From positions 22,651 through 86,650 of the forward strand of contig CACOYM010000011.1 in assembly GCA_902631395.1 (NCBI GenBank): a DNA stretch of 64,000 bases. Reading direction: 5' to 3'. Below, piece by piece: positions 51,370 to 62,216 of the stretch; within the stretch, counting starts at the first letter, position 1; every line of letters starts with the position of its first letter. The position numbers were made by a program, and so were the translations under genes. The notes below the pieces were generated by a model, which saw only the letters and a list, made by a program, of their open reading frames with translations, searched no databases and was not told where the DNA came from. The stretch comes from Halieaceae bacterium (GTDB taxonomy: Bacteria > Pseudomonadota > Gammaproteobacteria > Pseudomonadales > Halieaceae).

Positions 51370-51457
51370 GGAGAGATGGCCGAGTGGTCGAAGGCGCACG
51401 CCTGGAAAGTGTGTATACGGCAACGTATCGAGGGTTCGAATCCCTCTCTCTCCGCCA
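51370..51457 (+). tRNA. tRNA-Ser (anticodon GGA)
   Basis: GGAGAGATGGCCGAGTGGTCGAAGGCGCACGCCTGGAAAGTGTGTATACGGCAACGTATCGAGGGTTCGAATCCCTCTCTCTCCGCCA; long variable arm; encoded CCA. Confidence 0.97.
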
Positions 51458-51573
51458 TCTGCCTGTAACCGCTGGATACCTTAGCCGCCAGTTAAGGGAC
51501 TCCGACTTCTGATTTAGGCCCCCACGGCCCTGATATGATCGGTCAGGTCTGAGATTTCAGAGAGTCGGACAGG

Positions 51574-52143
51574 ATGAGAAAAAAAATCAAACTGCTCACC
51601 GTCGCTGTCGAGTCAGCCGCTGTAGGCACGGCCACCTTTTTCGCAACGGGGTATGGAATTGCGACAGTAGTTGAAGAAAACGGCGGCAGAACCTGGGGCG
51701 AGAATGGGTTACTCATCGGCCTCGCGGCCGTCGTTTCTTCTGGGTTAGCAGCCTATAAGTGGTTCCAGACTCGCTGGAAAGGCAACGCAGCAGGCTTGTA
51801 TGACATCGCAGCTACTGCGAAATCAGAGTGGGACTCGCTCGATAAGCGCAAGGAAAAAATAGGCTTTGCTGCCGCCGCTTGGTTGGCCTTCTTTAACGCA
51901 GTCATGGTAGTGAACGTCCCTGTATTTATCGTAGTCTGCAGTAAGTGCGATATGTTTGAGAGTAAAAGTCTCTACTACCGGTTGACGCACGGATACTACG
52001 ATCTTCTGGCGACACTACCCGGCCAGGGATTATGGTTGTTGTTAGGTCTGTCGCCGGTAACTTGGATATTGCTCTACATTTGGACGGGGGCCACGGGGAT
52101 CCTGCCCTGGAGACGGCCGCCGCGCACTGGGAATAACTCATGA
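51574..52143 (+). CDS. Hypothetical membrane protein between tRNA-Ser and its 3'-end duplicate
   Basis: 189 aa, several TM segments, CSKCDMF; no recognised family. Confidence 0.6.
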   Translation: MRKKIKLLTVAVESAAVGTATFFATGYGIATVVEENGGRTWGENGLLIGLAAVVSSGLAAYKWFQTRWKGNAAGLYDIAATAKSEWDSLDKRKEKIGFAAAAWLAFFNAVMVVNVPVFIVVCSKCDMFESKSLYYRLTHGYYDLLATLPGQGLWLLLGLSPVTWILLYIWTGATGILPWRRPPRTGNNS

Positions 52144-52467
52144 GGCGGCTATGCGCTTTTGCCACCCCACTCATTCACCGCCTGACGGTGTTTTTACATA
52201 CTGCCAACTTGACGCCCGAATCCTCTATAAGGAAGGCCGCTTACATAAAAATGCGAGCCGCCATGACGAGAGATGACGACTGAAACGCGAAGGCTTTCGA
52301 TTGGTCATTTCATATATCCACCCTAAAGGGGTCCATATCTCACACGGGGGGACGCCGCCAGCCGGATACGCCCAGGGTGGGGATATCCGGTGGTAGGGCA
52401 GGGCGGCCAGCTGGTGAGAGGGCCTTGCTGCCAGTGACTCGATAGCAGCGTTCAGACAGCGAGCTTC

Positions 52468-52489
52468 TGGGGGGACATTTGGGGGGACA
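52468..52489 (+). repeat. Tandem direct repeat TGGGGGGACA / TTTGGGGGGACA
   Basis: Two adjacent copies at 52468-52477 and 52478-52489; a related CGGGGGGAC lies at about 52345-52353. Confidence 0.7.
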
Positions 52490-52541
52490 TGGGGAGTCAG
52501 TGATTGGTGAATGTATCAATGGCAATGGATTCAGGCCCGTA

Positions 52542-52565
52542 TTCGACGCACTCTCTCTCCGCCAT
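52542..52565 (+). repeat. Imperfect duplicate of the tRNA-Ser 3' end (candidate att site)
   Basis: TTCGACGCACTCTCTCTCCGCCAT versus TTCGAATCCCTCTCTCTCCGCCAT at 51435-51458: 21/24 identity, last 15 nt identical. Confidence 0.75.
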
Positions 52566-52667
52566 TGCCGCATTGCGGTAGCTGGTTTGATGTTGGTGTA
52601 GGCCCTGCCTATTACGACTGATGACTAAACCACTTCGCGCCATCCTGCTGTTCCTGTTATCGGCTCC

Positions 52668-53087
52668 TCATACTGAAAGCGCTGCAAAAATCTCCATTGA
52701 AATCATTGAGAGCAGAATCAAAGAAGAGTTTGCGAAACATGCTGCTCGCCAGGAGACATTATTAACAGTCAGCTGTATAGCTGAGTGAATCACCCTGAGA
52801 GATACGTAGGCCCATGCGAGCCAAATATTTGTCTGGCTTACCGTGTCAACAAGATGTATGTAAATCAAAACAGCGTAAAAAAGCGTTGGCTGCTCAAATA
52901 TGTGATTGTAGTTATCAGTTACATATCTGAATTTTTCAGACATTTTTGGACGCAATTCATCCGAGTGCTTCGCGAACTGCAGATTGCCCCACTGCTTTAT
53001 AACTACTGGTACTCGGGTCATCACTAAGATTGCGGTAATCAATCCAGACCACGCCATCATTGCTAACATTGGATCCAATATGCTCAT
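52668..53087 (-). CDS. MAPEG-family membrane protein
   Basis: Four TMs; RPKMSEKFRYVTDNYNHIFEQPTLFYAVLIYIHL and WAYVSLRVIHSAIQL typical of bacterial MAPEG. Confidence 0.8.
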   Translation of the reverse strand: MSILDPMLAMMAWSGLITAILVMTRVPVVIKQWGNLQFAKHSDELRPKMSEKFRYVTDNYNHIFEQPTLFYAVLIYIHLVDTVSQTNIWLAWAYVSLRVIHSAIQLTVNNVSWRAACFANSSLILLSMISMEIFAALSV

Positions 53088-53404
53088 ATCAAATACTCTT
53101 TACCAGGACTCACAAATGATAGCTTTCTGAGCTATCCACTCGGCTATAGAGATGCCCCTACTGTATCTGGGCTGTAACCATCACAGTCGCAACCGCGGTT
53201 AGCCCCCCCCATCGGGGGGCAATGCGGATTTTGCTGAGACTCCTAAGCCAAATTAACTGCACTCGGAAGTGATCTAACATAAGCGAGGGGGGCGTTTGAC
53301 TTTTAGCGGGGTGGGTTGTCTTGTGTGGTGCCAGTGTAAAGGGAACTTAATACCCCTCGATCATTGCGATCGTGCCGGTTTAAGTCAGGCCTTGGGCATC
53401 ACAA

Positions 53405-55269: not shown

Positions 55270-56382
55270 ATGATTGGCAAAAAGTTTATGTCGATGGCAA
55301 GCAAGAGTGTTGTCTTCTGGTTGCTTAGTGCGGCTACTTTTCATGTTGGCGCGGACAGCTTCACCGTCGGGGAGGTCACTGTGACTCGGGGTGAGCAGTC
55401 GTCGGGGTTCATCATGATTCCCGACGGTATAGACGAAGGCAGCAGGATACCCGTGACCGTCTCCCATGGGGCCAGCGATGGACCAGTTCTGGCCTTGATT
55501 GCCGGCATTCATGGCTACGAATATCCCCCTATCACCGCTCTGCAGGCATTGAGAGGAAAAGTAGATCCTGCGGCCCTAAGCGGCACTATTGTCATGGTGC
55601 ACATCGCCAACATGCCCTCATTTTTGGGTCGCACCATCTACTACAGCCCCGCAGATGGAAAAAATTTGAATCGGATGTTTCCGGGTGATCCCAACGGTAG
55701 CATCAGCCAGCGTATCGCCCATTTTCTTACCACCGAGGTCATCGATCAGGCCGACTACCTTGTTGATTTGCATGGCGGGGACGGTAATGAGGCTCTGCGA
55801 CCTTATGTGTATATGCCGGTCACAGGCGACGCCTCGTTTGACGCCAGAACAGAGGGTCTAGCGCTAGCCTTTGGCTTGGACCATATAGTTATCGATACGG
55901 GGCCTCAGAGCGCCAGCGGCGCCTCTTTGTTTACAGATCAAACAGCGCTTGTTCGTGGAATACCAGCTATTACCACTGAGACAGGACAGTTGGGATCTAA
56001 CGATTCTTACTGGGTAGAACTAGCAGAGCGGGGAGTATGGAACGTTTTGCGGCACCTAGACATGATCACTGAGGATGAAGTGGTCAACACAGGAGTTACG
56101 TGGTTGAGTGAATATAAGGTGATCAAGAGTCCGCAGTCTGGCATTTTTCGCGCGTTCACTAGAGACGGCTACGTAGTTTCCGAGGGTGCGGTTCTTGGTG
56201 TGCTTGCCGACTTTTTCGGCAACGAGTTGGCAACAATACGAGCGCCTTTTTCCGGGATCGTGAACTATGTGATCAGCACACCCCCTGTGAATGAGGGCGA
56301 GCCCGTAGCGATGATCAGCAAGATTGCAGATCTCGATCACTGCTTTAGCAAGCGGTTACAGGAACCCTGCCGCTACCGATAG
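55270..56382 (+). CDS. Succinylglutamate desuccinylase/aspartoacylase-family protein, signal-peptide bearing
   Basis: N-terminal SMASKSVVFWLLSAATFHVGADS; GIHGYEYPP (HxxE), LVDLHGGDGNE zinc ligands. Confidence 0.82.
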   Translation: MIGKKFMSMASKSVVFWLLSAATFHVGADSFTVGEVTVTRGEQSSGFIMIPDGIDEGSRIPVTVSHGASDGPVLALIAGIHGYEYPPITALQALRGKVDPAALSGTIVMVHIANMPSFLGRTIYYSPADGKNLNRMFPGDPNGSISQRIAHFLTTEVIDQADYLVDLHGGDGNEALRPYVYMPVTGDASFDARTEGLALAFGLDHIVIDTGPQSASGASLFTDQTALVRGIPAITTETGQLGSNDSYWVELAERGVWNVLRHLDMITEDEVVNTGVTWLSEYKVIKSPQSGIFRAFTRDGYVVSEGAVLGVLADFFGNELATIRAPFSGIVNYVISTPPVNEGEPVAMISKIADLDHCFSKRLQEPCRYR

Positions 56383-56665
56383 GAGCCAAGCAGTCAGCGT
56401 CACTACTAAAAAAAGACTAGCTTTTTCACGTTGCACTCTCCACTGGCAAACCTGATAAAACAAGTGGTGGGAGGGGGCTAGCCTCGCCAAAAATCTCCCC
56501 CTCAAACACATTTAGGCGTTAACCATCGCAACCACAACGCCGCTCTCTTCCGTGGGGCCGGCAAGAAGCCTTTCGCAAAAATTGACGCACTGCACCTTCT
56601 TTAGAAAAAAGTGATGTTGATGTAAAAGAAAAGTCCTGCAATGAGAGAACGAAGGCTGTGACAAA

Positions 56666-57433
56666 ATGAGAATGAAGGAAAAAGTTGTCTTAATCACCGG
56701 CGCAACAGGCGAGATCGGTACGGAGATGACGCGACGATTTCTCACCGAGGGGGCTTCAGTCTTTATTACTGGCCGGTCAGCAGAAAAGCTTGCGGACATG
56801 GTTCAGTCCATGGGCGTCGGAGCGAGACTGAAAACTTGTTTGGTAGATGCTCTTGACGAGTCAGCAGTTTCATTTTCTGTGGAGAGGTGTGTTGCTGAGT
56901 TTGGCGGCATCGACGCGATCATCGCTAACGCAGGCACGGAGGGGAAAGTCCAACCGCTGGAAAAATATTCAGTCGAGGAATTCAACGAAACCCTCCTCGT
57001 AAATGTAACTGGTGTATGGCTCTACCTGAAACATGGACTTCCTCCGATGCGTGCGAGGGGAAGCGGCAGTTTTGTGGCGATATCTTCGGGTGCAGGCATA
57101 GTGGGTTTCCCTGGTTTGTGCCCCTACGCAGCCAGTAAACATGCGGTAAATGGATTAGTGAGAACGGCCTGTCTTGAAAATGCCGGTTTTGGCATAAGAG
57201 TTAATGCGCTGGCGCCGGGACCGACAGATACGCGAATGATGGAATCTGTTGGATTACAAGCTAATTCTAGCGACCCCACGGCTTTTAAGAGCGCTGTCAT
57301 CTCCACGATCCCAATGCAGCGTTACGGAAAAGTAGAGGAGATTGCTAACCTCGCAGTTTTTCTAGCTTCAGAAGACTCGTCTTTTTGTAACGGCGGGGTC
57401 TACATGGCAGACGGAGGATTTACAGCAGCTTGA
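56666..57433 (+). CDS. SDR-family oxidoreductase (candidate sugar/sugar-acid dehydrogenase of the fucose cluster)
   Basis: ITGATGEIGTEM (TGxxxGxG), YAASKHAVNG (YxxxK), NALAPGPTDT. Confidence 0.85.
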   Translation: MRMKEKVVLITGATGEIGTEMTRRFLTEGASVFITGRSAEKLADMVQSMGVGARLKTCLVDALDESAVSFSVERCVAEFGGIDAIIANAGTEGKVQPLEKYSVEEFNETLLVNVTGVWLYLKHGLPPMRARGSGSFVAISSGAGIVGFPGLCPYAASKHAVNGLVRTACLENAGFGIRVNALAPGPTDTRMMESVGLQANSSDPTAFKSAVISTIPMQRYGKVEEIANLAVFLASEDSSFCNGGVYMADGGFTAA

Positions 57434-57893
57434 GTAATTTACCGTGGGAATGGCGTTGCAAGGTTTATGTCTGGGCGGCAAGCATCACACTTGTCACGGC
57501 CGCGGAATCCCCTCGTAAAGGTATTTCAGTGACACATAGGTGGCACAGCTAGGTATGCACAACGCAGCTCGGTACAGCAAAAATGGCTTCATAATTGGGG
57601 TTTGTGTTGCGATGAGGTTCACTGCGATGCGAGGGGGATAAAGTACCAACCGCATAAAATCCCTTGCCCATTGAGGTCATGCCATTTCAAATTTAGCCCC
57701 TAGCGCTGCGCCTATCCCCTTTTGCGAGCAGCTTCCACATCGCATGTCTGGTAAGGTGTTTTGGAGATTCTTGGCGAGTAGATTTAACTAAAAACGAGCA
57801 CTTTTGCATGGCTCTTCCCCCTAGATCGCAACTCAGACGGACTGTAAGTTCGTTATGTGGGGCTCTTAGCTACTGAGGTGCACTGTCGCAACA

Positions 57894-59210
57894 ATGGGAG
57901 ATGGTCTGGTAGCTGTGCGGAAAAACAACGAGATACTTATCGGCGCGGGGCAAATTGTACCGTTCATCTTGGTAACCAGTTTGTTCGCGCTTTGGGGATT
58001 TGCAAACGATCTTACAAACCCATTGGTGAAAGTGTTCAAGGAAGTGCTTCAGATATCGAACACCCAATCTAGCTTCATACAAGTTTCATTTTACTTGGGA
58101 TATTTCACCATGGCGTTGCCGGCAGCTTTGTTTGTCCGTCGACATGGCTACAAACCTGGCATCGCAGCAGGCCTGCTTTTGTATTCGCTCGGCGCTTTCA
58201 TGACCTACCCTGCCACCGTCACCACGAATTTTTGGTTCTTTGTGGCGGCTCTATATGTACTGACCTTTGGTCTCGCCTTTCTAGAGACCAGTGCCAATCC
58301 ATACATTCTCTCGCTAGGGCCAACGAGTACTGCAACCCGTCGGCTCAACTTAGCTCAGGCGTTCAATCCCATAGGATCGCTGTTTGGAATGTTTGTTGCT
58401 GCTAGTTTTGTCATGAGTCAACTTACCTTACTTGAGAAATCTGCCGCCGAAAAAATGAATATGTTGACAGCTGATCCCACGCTATTTCAAAGTCTACAGG
58501 CTGCTGATTTGGCGGTGGTGCGTCTTCCATATCTTGCCGTGGGCGCAGTAACGATGCTGATGTTTCTGGTTTTTGTCGCCTCGCGACTGCCAGAACCCAA
58601 AGACGAGTCAGCAGTGGTAACAGGCCTGGCTGAGTCGATCAAAATACTTGCGAGGAACAAACAATATCGCGAGGGCGTTCTAGCTCAGGCGTTCTACGTT
58701 GGCGCTCAGATTTCTTGCTGGACTTACATCATTCACTACGGTGTTGATGTGCTGGGCCTTTCTGGGACCCAGTCACAGCATTACAACATTCTGGCAATGG
58801 TGCTTTTTTTGGCCGCACGCTTTGGTTGCCTTTGGTTAATGAGAATCTACGATCCAGCGTACCTTCTTCAATTCTTTTCGTCGCTTGCTGCGGTGCTAGT
58901 CATTGGAGCGATGCTGTTCGACAGCATGCTGGGCTTATATTGTCTAATTGCAGTTTCGGGGTGCATGTCGCTTATGTTCCCAACTATTTATGGGCTCTCT
59001 TTGTCAGCGGTGGGTTCACAGACACAAATTGCATCAGCAGGCATGGTTATGGCCATCGCAGGCGGCGCTCTAATGCCATTACTTCAGGCTGTTTTAATCG
59101 ATACGGATCCTTTTCCAGATTTATTTCATACAGTTCAGTTTAGTTTTGTACTGCCGCTTGCATGCTTTTCTGTTGTAGCGTGGTATGCGTCACGTCGCAT
59201 CTTTAGTTGA
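57894..59210 (+). CDS. fucP: L-fucose:H+ symporter FucP-like MFS transporter
   Basis: SLFALWGFANDLTNPLVKVFKEVLQISNTQSSFIQVSFYLGYFTMALPAALFVRRHGYKPGI; FLETSANPYILSLGP. Confidence 0.9.
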   Translation: MGDGLVAVRKNNEILIGAGQIVPFILVTSLFALWGFANDLTNPLVKVFKEVLQISNTQSSFIQVSFYLGYFTMALPAALFVRRHGYKPGIAAGLLLYSLGAFMTYPATVTTNFWFFVAALYVLTFGLAFLETSANPYILSLGPTSTATRRLNLAQAFNPIGSLFGMFVAASFVMSQLTLLEKSAAEKMNMLTADPTLFQSLQAADLAVVRLPYLAVGAVTMLMFLVFVASRLPEPKDESAVVTGLAESIKILARNKQYREGVLAQAFYVGAQISCWTYIIHYGVDVLGLSGTQSQHYNILAMVLFLAARFGCLWLMRIYDPAYLLQFFSSLAAVLVIGAMLFDSMLGLYCLIAVSGCMSLMFPTIYGLSLSAVGSQTQIASAGMVMAIAGGALMPLLQAVLIDTDPFPDLFHTVQFSFVLPLACFSVVAWYASRRIFS

Positions 59211-59241
59211 AAATAAAAATTGGCTGGAGGGACGTTTGGCT

Positions 59242-59589
59242 ATGCAGCAACATGTGTTGATGATCGATTTGGTCGACGATGAGACGATGATAGGGGAATA
59301 CGTTGCATGGCATGCGTCGGGCGCCGTGCCAGCTTCGGTAATAAGTTCGATACGGGACAGTGGCATCACAGCTATGAATATTTACCGGGTTGCTAATAGG
59401 TTGGCGATGGTGATTGAGGTGACTGATGATTTCAGTTTTAAGTCCAAGGCTGTCAGCGACCGTGAAGATCCGGATGTGGTCGCTTGGGAAGCCCTCATGG
59501 CTCGCTTTCAGCGGCCTCTACCATGCGCAGAGCCTGGCGAAAAATGGGTAATTGGCGAGCTCATTTTCAATCTGACAGCTACGAGTTGA
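59242..59589 (+). CDS. L-rhamnose/L-fucose mutarotase-like protein
   Basis: MIDLVDDETMIGEYVAWHASG...SIRDSGITAMNIYRVANRLAMVIEV typical of RhaM/fucose mutarotase family; RBS GGAGGGA upstream of 59242. Confidence 0.82.
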   Translation: MQQHVLMIDLVDDETMIGEYVAWHASGAVPASVISSIRDSGITAMNIYRVANRLAMVIEVTDDFSFKSKAVSDREDPDVVAWEALMARFQRPLPCAEPGEKWVIGELIFNLTATS

Positions 59590-59806
59590 AGATTGAATTT
59601 TGCTAACTGCGAGGTCACTGGACGGCTCTTGAGGTTGACATTGATACTGATCTTATTTCACTCAGCTAATCTGTTCTCGTTCGAGATCGCGGGCTGCCAT
59701 CAGTGTCTCCCATCGGGCCGCCGATAGCATGAAGATATAGTGTCGCGTCTCTATGTTTACATAGCTAAAAGTCCATACAGAACCATAGCTTAAAGGCTGA
59801 AGTTTA

Positions 59807-61114
59807 GTGAATTCGAACCAAATTACGGTGTTATCCGCACAGGATGTGCGGTTTCCGACGTCAGAAACGTCCTCCGGATCAGACGCCATGAATGTCGATC
59901 CGGATTATTCGGCTACGTACATCACGTTGGAAACCGAGAGTGGGGCATGCGGTTACGGTCTGGTTTTCACTATCGGCCGCGGAAATGATTTGTGCTGCCG
60001 CGCCGTAGAAGCGATGGCCGATCGAGTTTTGGGCTATGATTTCGCGAAGATTCAATCGGATATTCTTGGCTTTTATCGGCATCTCCAGGCAGACAGCCAA
60101 CTTCGTTGGCTTGGGCCTGAGAAGGGCCTAATGCATATGGCGGCGGGGGGCATTATGAATGCTGCCTGGGACCTTTGGGCGCGACTCGAACGGAAGCCGC
60201 TTTGGCGACTCTTGTCTGACATGCCACCAGAGCAGTTTATCGCTTGCGTTGACTTTCGATATCTTGAAGATGTGATGTGTCGCAGTGAAGCTTTAGCGTT
60301 GGTTCAGGCTAACGAAGCCACCAAGACGGAACGGATAGATACTCTCAAGAATGAGGGATATCCCGCATACACAACGTCTGCGGGTTGGTTGGGGTATAAC
60401 GACGAGAAGATTGAGTCGCTGGTCCGTGAAGCCGTTGATCAGGGTTTTCGCCATGTCAAACTGAAGATAGGCCAATCATTGGATGACGACTTGCGCAGAG
60501 TGGGCCTGGTGAGAAAATGTGTGGGTGATGACGTAAAAATAATGGTCGACGCAAATCAGATTTGGGAGGTCGATGAGGCTGTTGAGTGGGTAAATTCGCT
60601 CGCCGAGATGCGGCCTTGGTTTATCGAGGAGCCGACAAGTCCCGATGACATCCTGGGTCATCGTGCTATCAAATCCCGAGTTGCTCCAGTGCTAGTGGCC
60701 ACCGGTGAGCAGTGCCATAATCGGGTGATGTTCAAGCAGTTCATCGCACATGACGCCATTGATATTGTGCAAATCGATAGTTGCCGTCTGGCGAGTGTGA
60801 ACGAGATATTGGCGGTATTGCTCATGGCTGCTAAGTATAAAAAGCCGGGCTGCCCACACGCGGGGGGGGTTGGGCTTTGTGAAATGGTCCAGCACCTTTC
60901 CATGGTTGACTATGTTCGCATTTCAGCTGATATGACCGATCGCGTTATCGAGTTTGTGGACCACTTGCACGAGCATTTTGAGGATCCGTGTCAAATTAAG
61001 AATGGTGCTTACGTTACCCCAAGCCAACCCGGGTATAGCACCAAAATGCTCTCGAAATCGATTGACCACTTCGCTTTCCCTGAGGGGCGTGAATGGGTTC
61101 TTAGGTCAGCTTGA
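59807..61114 (+). CDS. L-fuconate dehydratase (enolase superfamily; GTG start)
   Basis: HVKLKIG (KxK), MVDANQIW, PHAGGVGLCEMVQHL catalytic motifs; fuconate dehydratase-like N-terminus DPDYSATYITLET. Confidence 0.92.
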   Translation: MNSNQITVLSAQDVRFPTSETSSGSDAMNVDPDYSATYITLETESGACGYGLVFTIGRGNDLCCRAVEAMADRVLGYDFAKIQSDILGFYRHLQADSQLRWLGPEKGLMHMAAGGIMNAAWDLWARLERKPLWRLLSDMPPEQFIACVDFRYLEDVMCRSEALALVQANEATKTERIDTLKNEGYPAYTTSAGWLGYNDEKIESLVREAVDQGFRHVKLKIGQSLDDDLRRVGLVRKCVGDDVKIMVDANQIWEVDEAVEWVNSLAEMRPWFIEEPTSPDDILGHRAIKSRVAPVLVATGEQCHNRVMFKQFIAHDAIDIVQIDSCRLASVNEILAVLLMAAKYKKPGCPHAGGVGLCEMVQHLSMVDYVRISADMTDRVIEFVDHLHEHFEDPCQIKNGAYVTPSQPGYSTKMLSKSIDHFAFPEGREWVLRSA

Positions 61115-61169
61115 CGATGCGTGGTTCGGTTACTTTATTAGTGTGCTGCAGAGATTGCGTCGGTAACCG

Positions 61170-62216
61170 ATGCTGACTAGGCGGTTGGGCGCCTCAGACC
61201 TTCACGTCTCGGTATTGGGATTTGGCGGGGCTCCACTCGGCAATCTTTACAAGCCGGTTTCTGATAAGGATGCCAGAGATACTCTCACCGCAGCATTAAA
61301 TTGTGGTCTGAATTTCTTTGATACGGCGCCTCATTATGGCGCTGGGCTGAGCGAGCGTCGGATCGGTGACGCGGTTCGTGGGGCTGATATCAAAAACTGC
61401 ATTGTCTCGACAAAGGTTGGTCGTTTACTGTATCCCGATTCAGATGCTGATGTAAAAACTCTTCGACATGGCTTTATGACCCCCATGGCTTTTGAGCAGC
61501 GTTACGACTATAGCTACGACGGCATTATGCGATCCTGGGAGGACAGCCTTATGCGGCTGGGGCTAGCAAGCGTCGACATGCTTCTGGTACATGATATCGG
61601 GTTTGATACTCATCATGAGTTGCATGAGGACCGCTGGACGGAGTTAACGGTGGGAGGGGGTTACCTTGCGCTAGAGAAGTTACGCACAGGCGGCCAGGTA
61701 CGGGCAATTGGACTGGGGGTTAACGAGATAAAGGTTTGCGAGGCAGCACTGGGCGTAGGGCAGTTTGACTGCTTTTTGCTCGGGGGGCGTTACACCTTAC
61801 TCGAGCAAGAGGACGCCCTTGCACTTTTTTCTCGATGCTCAGCTATAGGCACCAGCATCATCGCCGGCAGTCCATTCAACAGTGGCATCCTGATAACAGG
61901 TGCTGCAAGTCCTCAAACCGGAAACTACAACTACGTTCCCGCCACCGCTGAGATTGTGAAGAGGGTGCGGGCAATTGAGACCGTGTGCCGTGATTTTGAT
62001 GTTCCTTTGGCCGCGGCAGCATTGCAATTACCCCTTGCGCATAACGCGGTCGCCTCGGTTATACCCGGACTCTCATCTGTGGCCTCTGTCAATCAAGCGC
62101 TGAGCTGGATCAACACTAGAACTCCGGCAGAGTTTTGGAATGTGCTGAAGGAATCAGACCTTCTTGCGGCCGAGGCGCCAATACCGCTGTTTGAGGATCG
62201 GCATGGAAGTTGTTGA
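61170..62216 (+). CDS. Aldo/keto reductase, L-fucose / D-threo-aldose 1-dehydrogenase-like
   Basis: LGFGGAPLGNLYKPVSDKDA, FFDTAPHYGAGLSERRIGDA. Confidence 0.87.
   Translation: MLTRRLGASDLHVSVLGFGGAPLGNLYKPVSDKDARDTLTAALNCGLNFFDTAPHYGAGLSERRIGDAVRGADIKNCIVSTKVGRLLYPDSDADVKTLRHGFMTPMAFEQRYDYSYDGIMRSWEDSLMRLGLASVDMLLVHDIGFDTHHELHEDRWTELTVGGGYLALEKLRTGGQVRAIGLGVNEIKVCEAALGVGQFDCFLLGGRYTLLEQEDALALFSRCSAIGTSIIAGSPFNSGILITGAASPQTGNYNYVPATAEIVKRVRAIETVCRDFDVPLAAAALQLPLAHNAVASVIPGLSSVASVNQALSWINTRTPAEFWNVLKESDLLAAEAPIPLFEDRHGSC

Follow-up and report, generated by a model that had tools for sequence, protein, structure and literature searches.

We propose that the two copies of a tRNA-Ser(GGA) tail found on contig C11 in the genome of a marine Halieaceae bacterium are attachment-site (att) repeats, produced when a mobile element recombined with the 3' end of the tRNA gene through a tyrosine recombinase, and we consider this origin very probable. 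The stretch of DNA that was analysed, termed the window, comprises 64,000 nucleotides, and its source is a 2.3-Mb draft genome in 60 contigs that is 88.8% complete. The evidence comprises the repeats themselves, an insertion hotspot in the genus, occupied and empty sites, the integrases of full islands and a pair of arm-like repeats. Taken by itself, the islet is an additive island of an ordinary, known kind, and the novelty rests on the modules around it, which are associated with a ~45-bp repeat termed D. The features of the window are as follows.

51370..51457, + strand: tRNA-Ser(GGA) gene (ARAGORN), the proposed integration target; a hotspot across 57 genus genomes
51435..51458, + strand: putative att repeat, copy 1; exact 15-nt block at 51444-51458
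51458..52541, no strand: islet between the copies; shared as a block by no relative
51477..51580, + strand: recurrent leader, also near tRNA-Gly(CCC), on contig C17 of the same genome and three times in genome G015
51574..52143, + strand: membrane-type ORF of 189 aa, family unknown; last ~90 aa recur in tRNA-side islands
52386..52407, + strand: anchor motif common to the D-to-tRNA-tail stretch of islands in G062 and G064
52466..52489, + strand: pair of arm-site-like 12-bp direct repeats (TYTGGGGGGACA) preceding att copy 2; analogues in G039 and G062
52542..52565, + strand: putative att repeat, copy 2; exact block at 52551-52565
52619..52656, + strand: truncated copy of a recurrent module gene, start only (MTKPL...)
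52668..53087, - strand: MAPEG-family gene, forming with D a module also present at another G064 locus
53153..53209, + strand: D repeat, putative boundary site of module arrays
53340..53402, + strand: degenerate tRNA-Leu(TAA) 3' end, putative att tail belonging to another type of island
55320..57450, + strand: AstE/AspA-type and SDR genes, present in the tRNA-Leu island of G064 at 78% and 83% DNA identity
56501-56539: D repeat, second copy in the window

The two tail copies (51435-51458 and 52542-52565) lie on the same strand and are identical at 21 of 24 positions; the TTCGA at the start and a terminal block of 15 nt (CTCTCTCTCCGCCAT) match exactly, and the flanks do not match. When up to three mismatches are allowed, the tail sequence occurs at two sites only in the 64 kb, both strands having been searched, and it is absent from 100 dinucleotide shuffles of the window, which rules out a chance origin. 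The duplication of the tRNA-Ser 3' end reported in the earlier note is thus confirmed, with the correction that the first copy represents the last 23 nt of the tRNA gene plus one base, and not the last 24. Duplication of a tRNA tail is the textbook footprint of integration, and the exact 15-nt block is the core shared by the attL/attR-type ends in the window. Three of the 24 positions in the second copy differ from the first, and therefore either the copy is old or exchange was limited to the 15-nt core. A piece of tRNA with three mismatches might also be expected of a decayed duplicate tRNA-Ser gene in which no mobile element was involved, but the similarity begins sharply in the T-arm with none upstream, other genomes have true insertions ending in the same tRNA piece, and no intact second tRNA-Ser(GGA) is present at the locus in the 57 genus genomes, all of which make such an origin highly improbable.

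The second copy is preceded, at a distance of about 50 bp, by paired 12-bp direct repeats (TCTGGGGGGACATTTGGGGGGACA at 52466-52489), a hallmark that the earlier note had missed and one that did not appear in the shuffles. In sequence they resemble the arm sites of integrases, and analogous repeats precede the distal core of an island in genome G039 and a tmRNA tail in genome G062.

In a comparison of oriented loci from 57 genus genomes, one per species, the DNA downstream of tRNA-Ser(GGA) varied across the whole genus. A strong Rho-independent-type terminator directly follows the tRNA gene in 14 loci, an arrangement that we take as the native state, while in the window and about 20 other loci the native terminator is not adjacent. 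Three genomes contain a second tRNA tail and a displaced terminator downstream of the tRNA gene, at 14,148 bp in G039, 6,586 bp in G063 and 4,212 bp in G062 (the terminator being scored by a detector in G039 and G062, and identified by eye and by alignment in G063). In the 14.1-kb island of G039 and the 6.6-kb island of G063 a tyrosine recombinase of ~390 aa is encoded directly beside the tRNA gene; the domains of the G039 enzyme are Arm-DNA-bind_3, Phage_int_M and Phage_integrase, and the genes after it encode a CHC2 zinc-finger protein and an AAA ATPase. The 4.2-kb islet of G062 consists of intact gene modules, and no recombinase was found on the contig that holds its tRNA-Ser(GGA). Empty sites are represented by G058, whose downstream genes are the same as those of G062, and by G047, which matches the distal flank of the G063 island. 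Hence the comparison of relatives suggested in the earlier note yielded both the empty sites and the integrase islands ending in the same tail that it had asked about, although the presence and absence of inserts are seen between species only. The distal copy has in each case the acceptor-stem variant of its own host (CTCTCTCTCC in the window, CTCCCTCTCC in G062 and CTCCTTCTCC in G039). Synteny of the 51458-52565 segment in all close relatives, the outcome that the note had named as contrary to its reading, was not found, as no relative shares the block.

In the mechanism that we envisage, a mobile element would recombine with the 3' end of tRNA-Ser(GGA) by means of a tyrosine recombinase, and a crossover within the shared tail would leave the tRNA gene whole on the attL side, while the second tail, together with the arm sites of the element that precede it, would come to lie at the far end of the insert as an attR-type end. 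The islet would then be the remaining or the complete cargo of the insertion event, and successive inserts would pile up side by side in the hotspot to give an additive flexible genomic island.

The contents of the islet are consistent with this proposal. The 189-aa ORF (51574-52143) is the sole plausible gene between the copies, and neither an integrase nor a remnant of one was detected among the ORFs and domains of the 1.1-kb islet, so that the description of a single ORF without an integrase in the earlier note was borne out. The 189-aa protein has no match in Pfam, NCBIfam or PADLOC, while its last ~90 aa are 95% identical to a piece beside tRNA-Ser(GGA) in genome G051 and 73% identical to a piece 4 kb after tRNA-Ser(GCT) on contig C1 of its own genome, with weaker relatives ~0.4 kb after tRNA-Cys in genomes G065 and G022. 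With only its last ~90 aa matching other islands, the ORF looks like a fusion. The 22-nt anchor motif (52386-52407) is 81-86% identical to the D-to-tail stretches of the G062 islet and two G064 islands, with E values of about 0.003-0.03 in a search of six sequences. From the recurrence of its pieces in other islands and from the likeness of the anchor, the islet is therefore, judged by its sequence, island material whose right end resembles other att ends of the clade in its construction. The leader that precedes the ORF (51477-51580) is itself present as three copies at intervals of 350-470 bp after tRNA-Gly(CCC) in G015, and its occurrences outside the window are at L170 5367-6211 and L007 4143-4225.

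We infer an insertion event in the lineage of the window with an integrase that either acted in trans or was lost later, and these are two sub-cases of the proposed origin. If the islet is a deletion scar, a larger island with its own integrase once lay between the copies and lost that gene together with most of its cargo by internal deletion, so that a single gene and the two att ends remained. The full integrase islands at the same tRNA in G039 and G063 agree with this, as does the fusion-like ORF whose match to other islands is confined to its last ~90 aa, but the islet retains no integrase remnant and the G062 islet at the same tRNA likewise has no integrase and yet has intact gene modules; we see such a deletion as a realistic history that is somewhat short of an even chance. 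Alternatively, the islet may be complete as it stands, never having contained an integrase and relying on the enzyme of a resident island or phage. The arm-like repeats are retained at its right end, integrase-less islands built of modules are frequent beside tRNAs in the clade, and contig C17 of the same genome has a tyrosine recombinase gene; on the other hand, neither a link between that recombinase and the att core of the window nor an excised form of the islet is known, and there are no arm repeats at the left end of the islet beside the tRNA. We rate a mobile unit of this kind marginally higher than the deletion, still short of an even chance. Action in trans is slightly favoured over later loss because the G062 islet at the same tRNA and most of the module arrays that were read lack an adjacent integrase.

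The second copy of the tail is not the outer edge of the flexible DNA. The terminator detector found no strong native-type tRNA terminator after it, only a weak hairpin, and within 850 bases there is a second unit consisting of the MAPEG gene, a D repeat and a tRNA-Leu tail, past which island-type genes continue to the end of the contig. The module of MAPEG gene and D has an 82% match at another G064 locus, and the stretch from D to the tRNA-Leu tail is 67-74% identical to tRNA-Leu tails that recur after tRNA-Leu(TAA) in G064. Thus the attachment-scar interpretation in the earlier note holds with respect to a locus that is variable across the genus, with empty and occupied sites and integrase islands that have the same tail, but not with respect to a bounded islet of 1.1 kb: those bounds are too narrow, as no native terminator follows 52565 and a tRNA-Leu(TAA) tail and island genes do. 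Neither the core genes located after tRNA-Ser in relatives nor a full tRNA-Leu(TAA) gene was found in the assembly, and a 5' match on contig C20 proved to be an intact tRNA-Leu(CAG), which rejects a tRNA-Leu(TAA) gene split between contigs. The core genes missing between tRNA-Ser and tRNA-Leu reflect either a deletion or an assembly gap, and with neither these genes nor tRNA-Leu(TAA) found, the assembly gives no marker from which to position the outer boundary or a deletion. The same absences, the tRNA-Leu island end and genes that stand where core genes would be expected, and the fragmented state of the genome could also be accounted for if the contig joined tRNA-Ser and tRNA-Leu island DNA that is not contiguous in the cell. 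However, the same architecture of tRNA, modules, tail and D repeats is present in the separately assembled genomes G062 and G064, and an artefact alone would not create the arm repeats or a second tRNA-Ser tail; we regard a false join as improbable. Further along, the window has at 57894-62216 a gene for a FucP-type L-fucose permease (TIGR00885, over the cut-off) followed by enolase-superfamily, aldo/keto-reductase, sugar-acid-type and related genes; together these form a cluster for sugar catabolism within the flexible DNA.

The D repeat (~45 bp, core TCTGGGCGGTAACCATCACAATCACAACGGCRGTTAGC) is present as about 150 copies in 17 of the 57 genus genomes, 25 of them in the genome of the window. 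Neighbouring D copies within 5 kb of each other are co-oriented in 76 of 79 cases with a median spacing of 1.3 kb, and the intervals hold one or a few genes each, in either orientation. Where two D copies have homologous neighbouring modules (n = 22), the homology is upstream only in eight pairs, downstream only in 14 and on both sides in none. Because the shared modules lie on one side of D only in 22/22 pairs, D is the site at which modules exchange. The D clusters are associated with tRNA and tmRNA genes, as 21 of 33 lie within 7 kb of one (a hand tally of the fetched regions) versus about 17% expected, assuming some 28 tRNA clusters per genome, and the different t(m)RNA genes that the arrays adjoin number about a dozen; examples are L165 (G064:C1), L164 (G062:C2), L358-L360 (G062:C12 and C5) and L204-L205 (G064:C9). 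The array ends at tRNA-Cys, tRNA-Leu(CAG) and, in part, tRNA-Phe share a ~170-bp anchor that extends from the last D to the tRNA 3' end (L171 8110-8352, L221 27-280, L367 8848-9095, L008 5082-5310, L374 10667-10945 and L376 7220-7525), and TTGGGGAGTG direct repeats are found some 55 bp from the tRNA end at Cys, Leu(CAG) and Asn. Such a shared array end resembles a common landing platform, at least in its sequence, and in the cases that were read D points towards the att core. An orientation of D set by replication was considered: of 22 loci, 15 have positive GC skew on the D strand.

Several alternative identities of D were rejected. If D coded for the end of a protein, that end would read ...MYLGGNHHNHNGG followed by a stop, but the upstream frames share no protein and many of the substitutions change the residue. 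As a hairpin, it would have a GGGC(GG)TAACC/GGTTAGCCC stem, but the pairing of this stem does not exceed that of shuffled columns. Nor is it an attC site, as the boxes (R'' RYYYAAC, R' GTTRRRY) were present at 0 of 24 D sites and in 0 of 100 strand stretches of 205 bp around D, and no integron integrase (TIGR02249) scored over the cut-off in any of the 57 genus genomes. An exact 24-mer of the D core was found in no IMG/VR contig and, in a 257-Gb collection that may lack records near the genome of the window, only in four named Halieaceae assemblies.

Tyrosine-integrase islands and integrative elements have attL and attR at tRNA 3' ends, and their integrase-less remnants are known as cis-mobilizable elements. 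The window resembles them in its target, its repeat and its arm-like sites, and full versions with a P4-type integrase occupy the same tRNA, but it differs in that its islet has no integrase and its mobility is putative. It differs also from the islands of G039, G063 and G062, as there is no displaced native terminator to mark an outer boundary. Additive flexible genomic islands have been described in marine Alteromonas (PMC4119200) and 'Ca. Actinomarinales' (PMC7771536), and the Methylophilaceae fGI-2 has repeated tRNA-Lys ends (PMC10872708). In the portions of these accounts drawn on here, the common elements are that a tRNA is the target, that the inserts at a conserved location vary and comprise from a single gene to many, and that the tRNA end is directly repeated where the inserts end; unlike the islands as those portions describe them, neighbouring modules in the present case have a ~45-bp boundary site, D, of their own. 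Tycheposons, as far as the excerpted description goes, span 4-200 kb with a tyrosine recombinase (PMC10872708), and they are likewise tRNA-bordered marine bacterial islands with cargo genes, but the islet is 1.1 kb and has no recombinase.

The D arrays are comparable to integrons and CALINs in having small gene modules, co-oriented boundary sites and module exchange at the site, and they differ from them in the lack of IntI and of attC R' and R'' boxes, in a conserved inner sequence, in genes that have either orientation and in arrays that are located at many tRNAs. A CALIN does not need IntI. We tentatively suggest, while rating it below an even chance, that the island DNA represents an undescribed cassette system of a Halieaceae clade in which modules exchange at the non-attC site D via a non-integron recombinase, with tRNA 3' ends as parallel platforms. 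Co-oriented, D-bounded modules would form arrays that end in an anchor made up of arm-type repeats and a t(m)RNA 3' end or tail copy, the modules would move at D between tRNA sites and species, and many tRNA platforms would replace a single attI. Homologous recombination between D repeats is a possible source of the module exchange. In the literature collection searched, no paper joining Luminiphilus and integron was found, and the three papers on Halieaceae and genomic islands were off-subject by title and abstract.

A segment just after tRNA-Leu(TAA) in genome G011 (L176 10802-11200) and one ~3 kb after the tmRNA on contig C10 of the window's own genome (81517-81915) are 93% identical, compared with about 67-73% for the core DNA of the two species, indicating a recent transfer between tRNA-type sites. 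With regard to recombinases, contig C7 of the same genome encodes a lone tyrosine recombinase of 325-330 aa (L181 8186-9163), with orthologues in the clade of the window, that scores 132 bits with the XerC model (cut-off 335). The rest of the genus has two strong XerC/XerD-type matches versus this one in the clade of the window. Either the clade is a lineage with a single Xer, or the protein is a candidate recombinase for D.

Island insertion beside tRNAs is a common route of gene gain in ocean bacteria, and the tRNA-Ser(GGA) locus is one further hotspot of the kind already known from marine bacteria. The less ordinary part is the presence of arrays of swappable modules that have a conserved boundary site and no integron integrase. 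If their recombinase were found, they would constitute a second way, beside integrons, for bacteria to have cassette arrays, with tRNA genes as platforms.

Structured segments of another kind are also found at this tRNA. Segments of ~180 bp that end in a second tail in G048, G066, G006, G001 and G069 follow an intact terminator and were rejected as displaced-terminator insertions. In other congeners a ~130-bp multi-hairpin segment follows the tRNA-Ser(GGA) terminator (within the first ~190 bp after the tRNA at L077, L081, L082, L091 and L099, also at L085, L088 and L090); its stems differ between species, and in five congeners it ends in a second tRNA-tail copy. The IMES-1 RNA motif (RF02034) is located ~0.9 kb downstream of tRNA-Ser(GGA) in G001 (L091 2016-2200), and a partial match to it is near tRNA-Ser(GGA) in G018 (L084 1-101).
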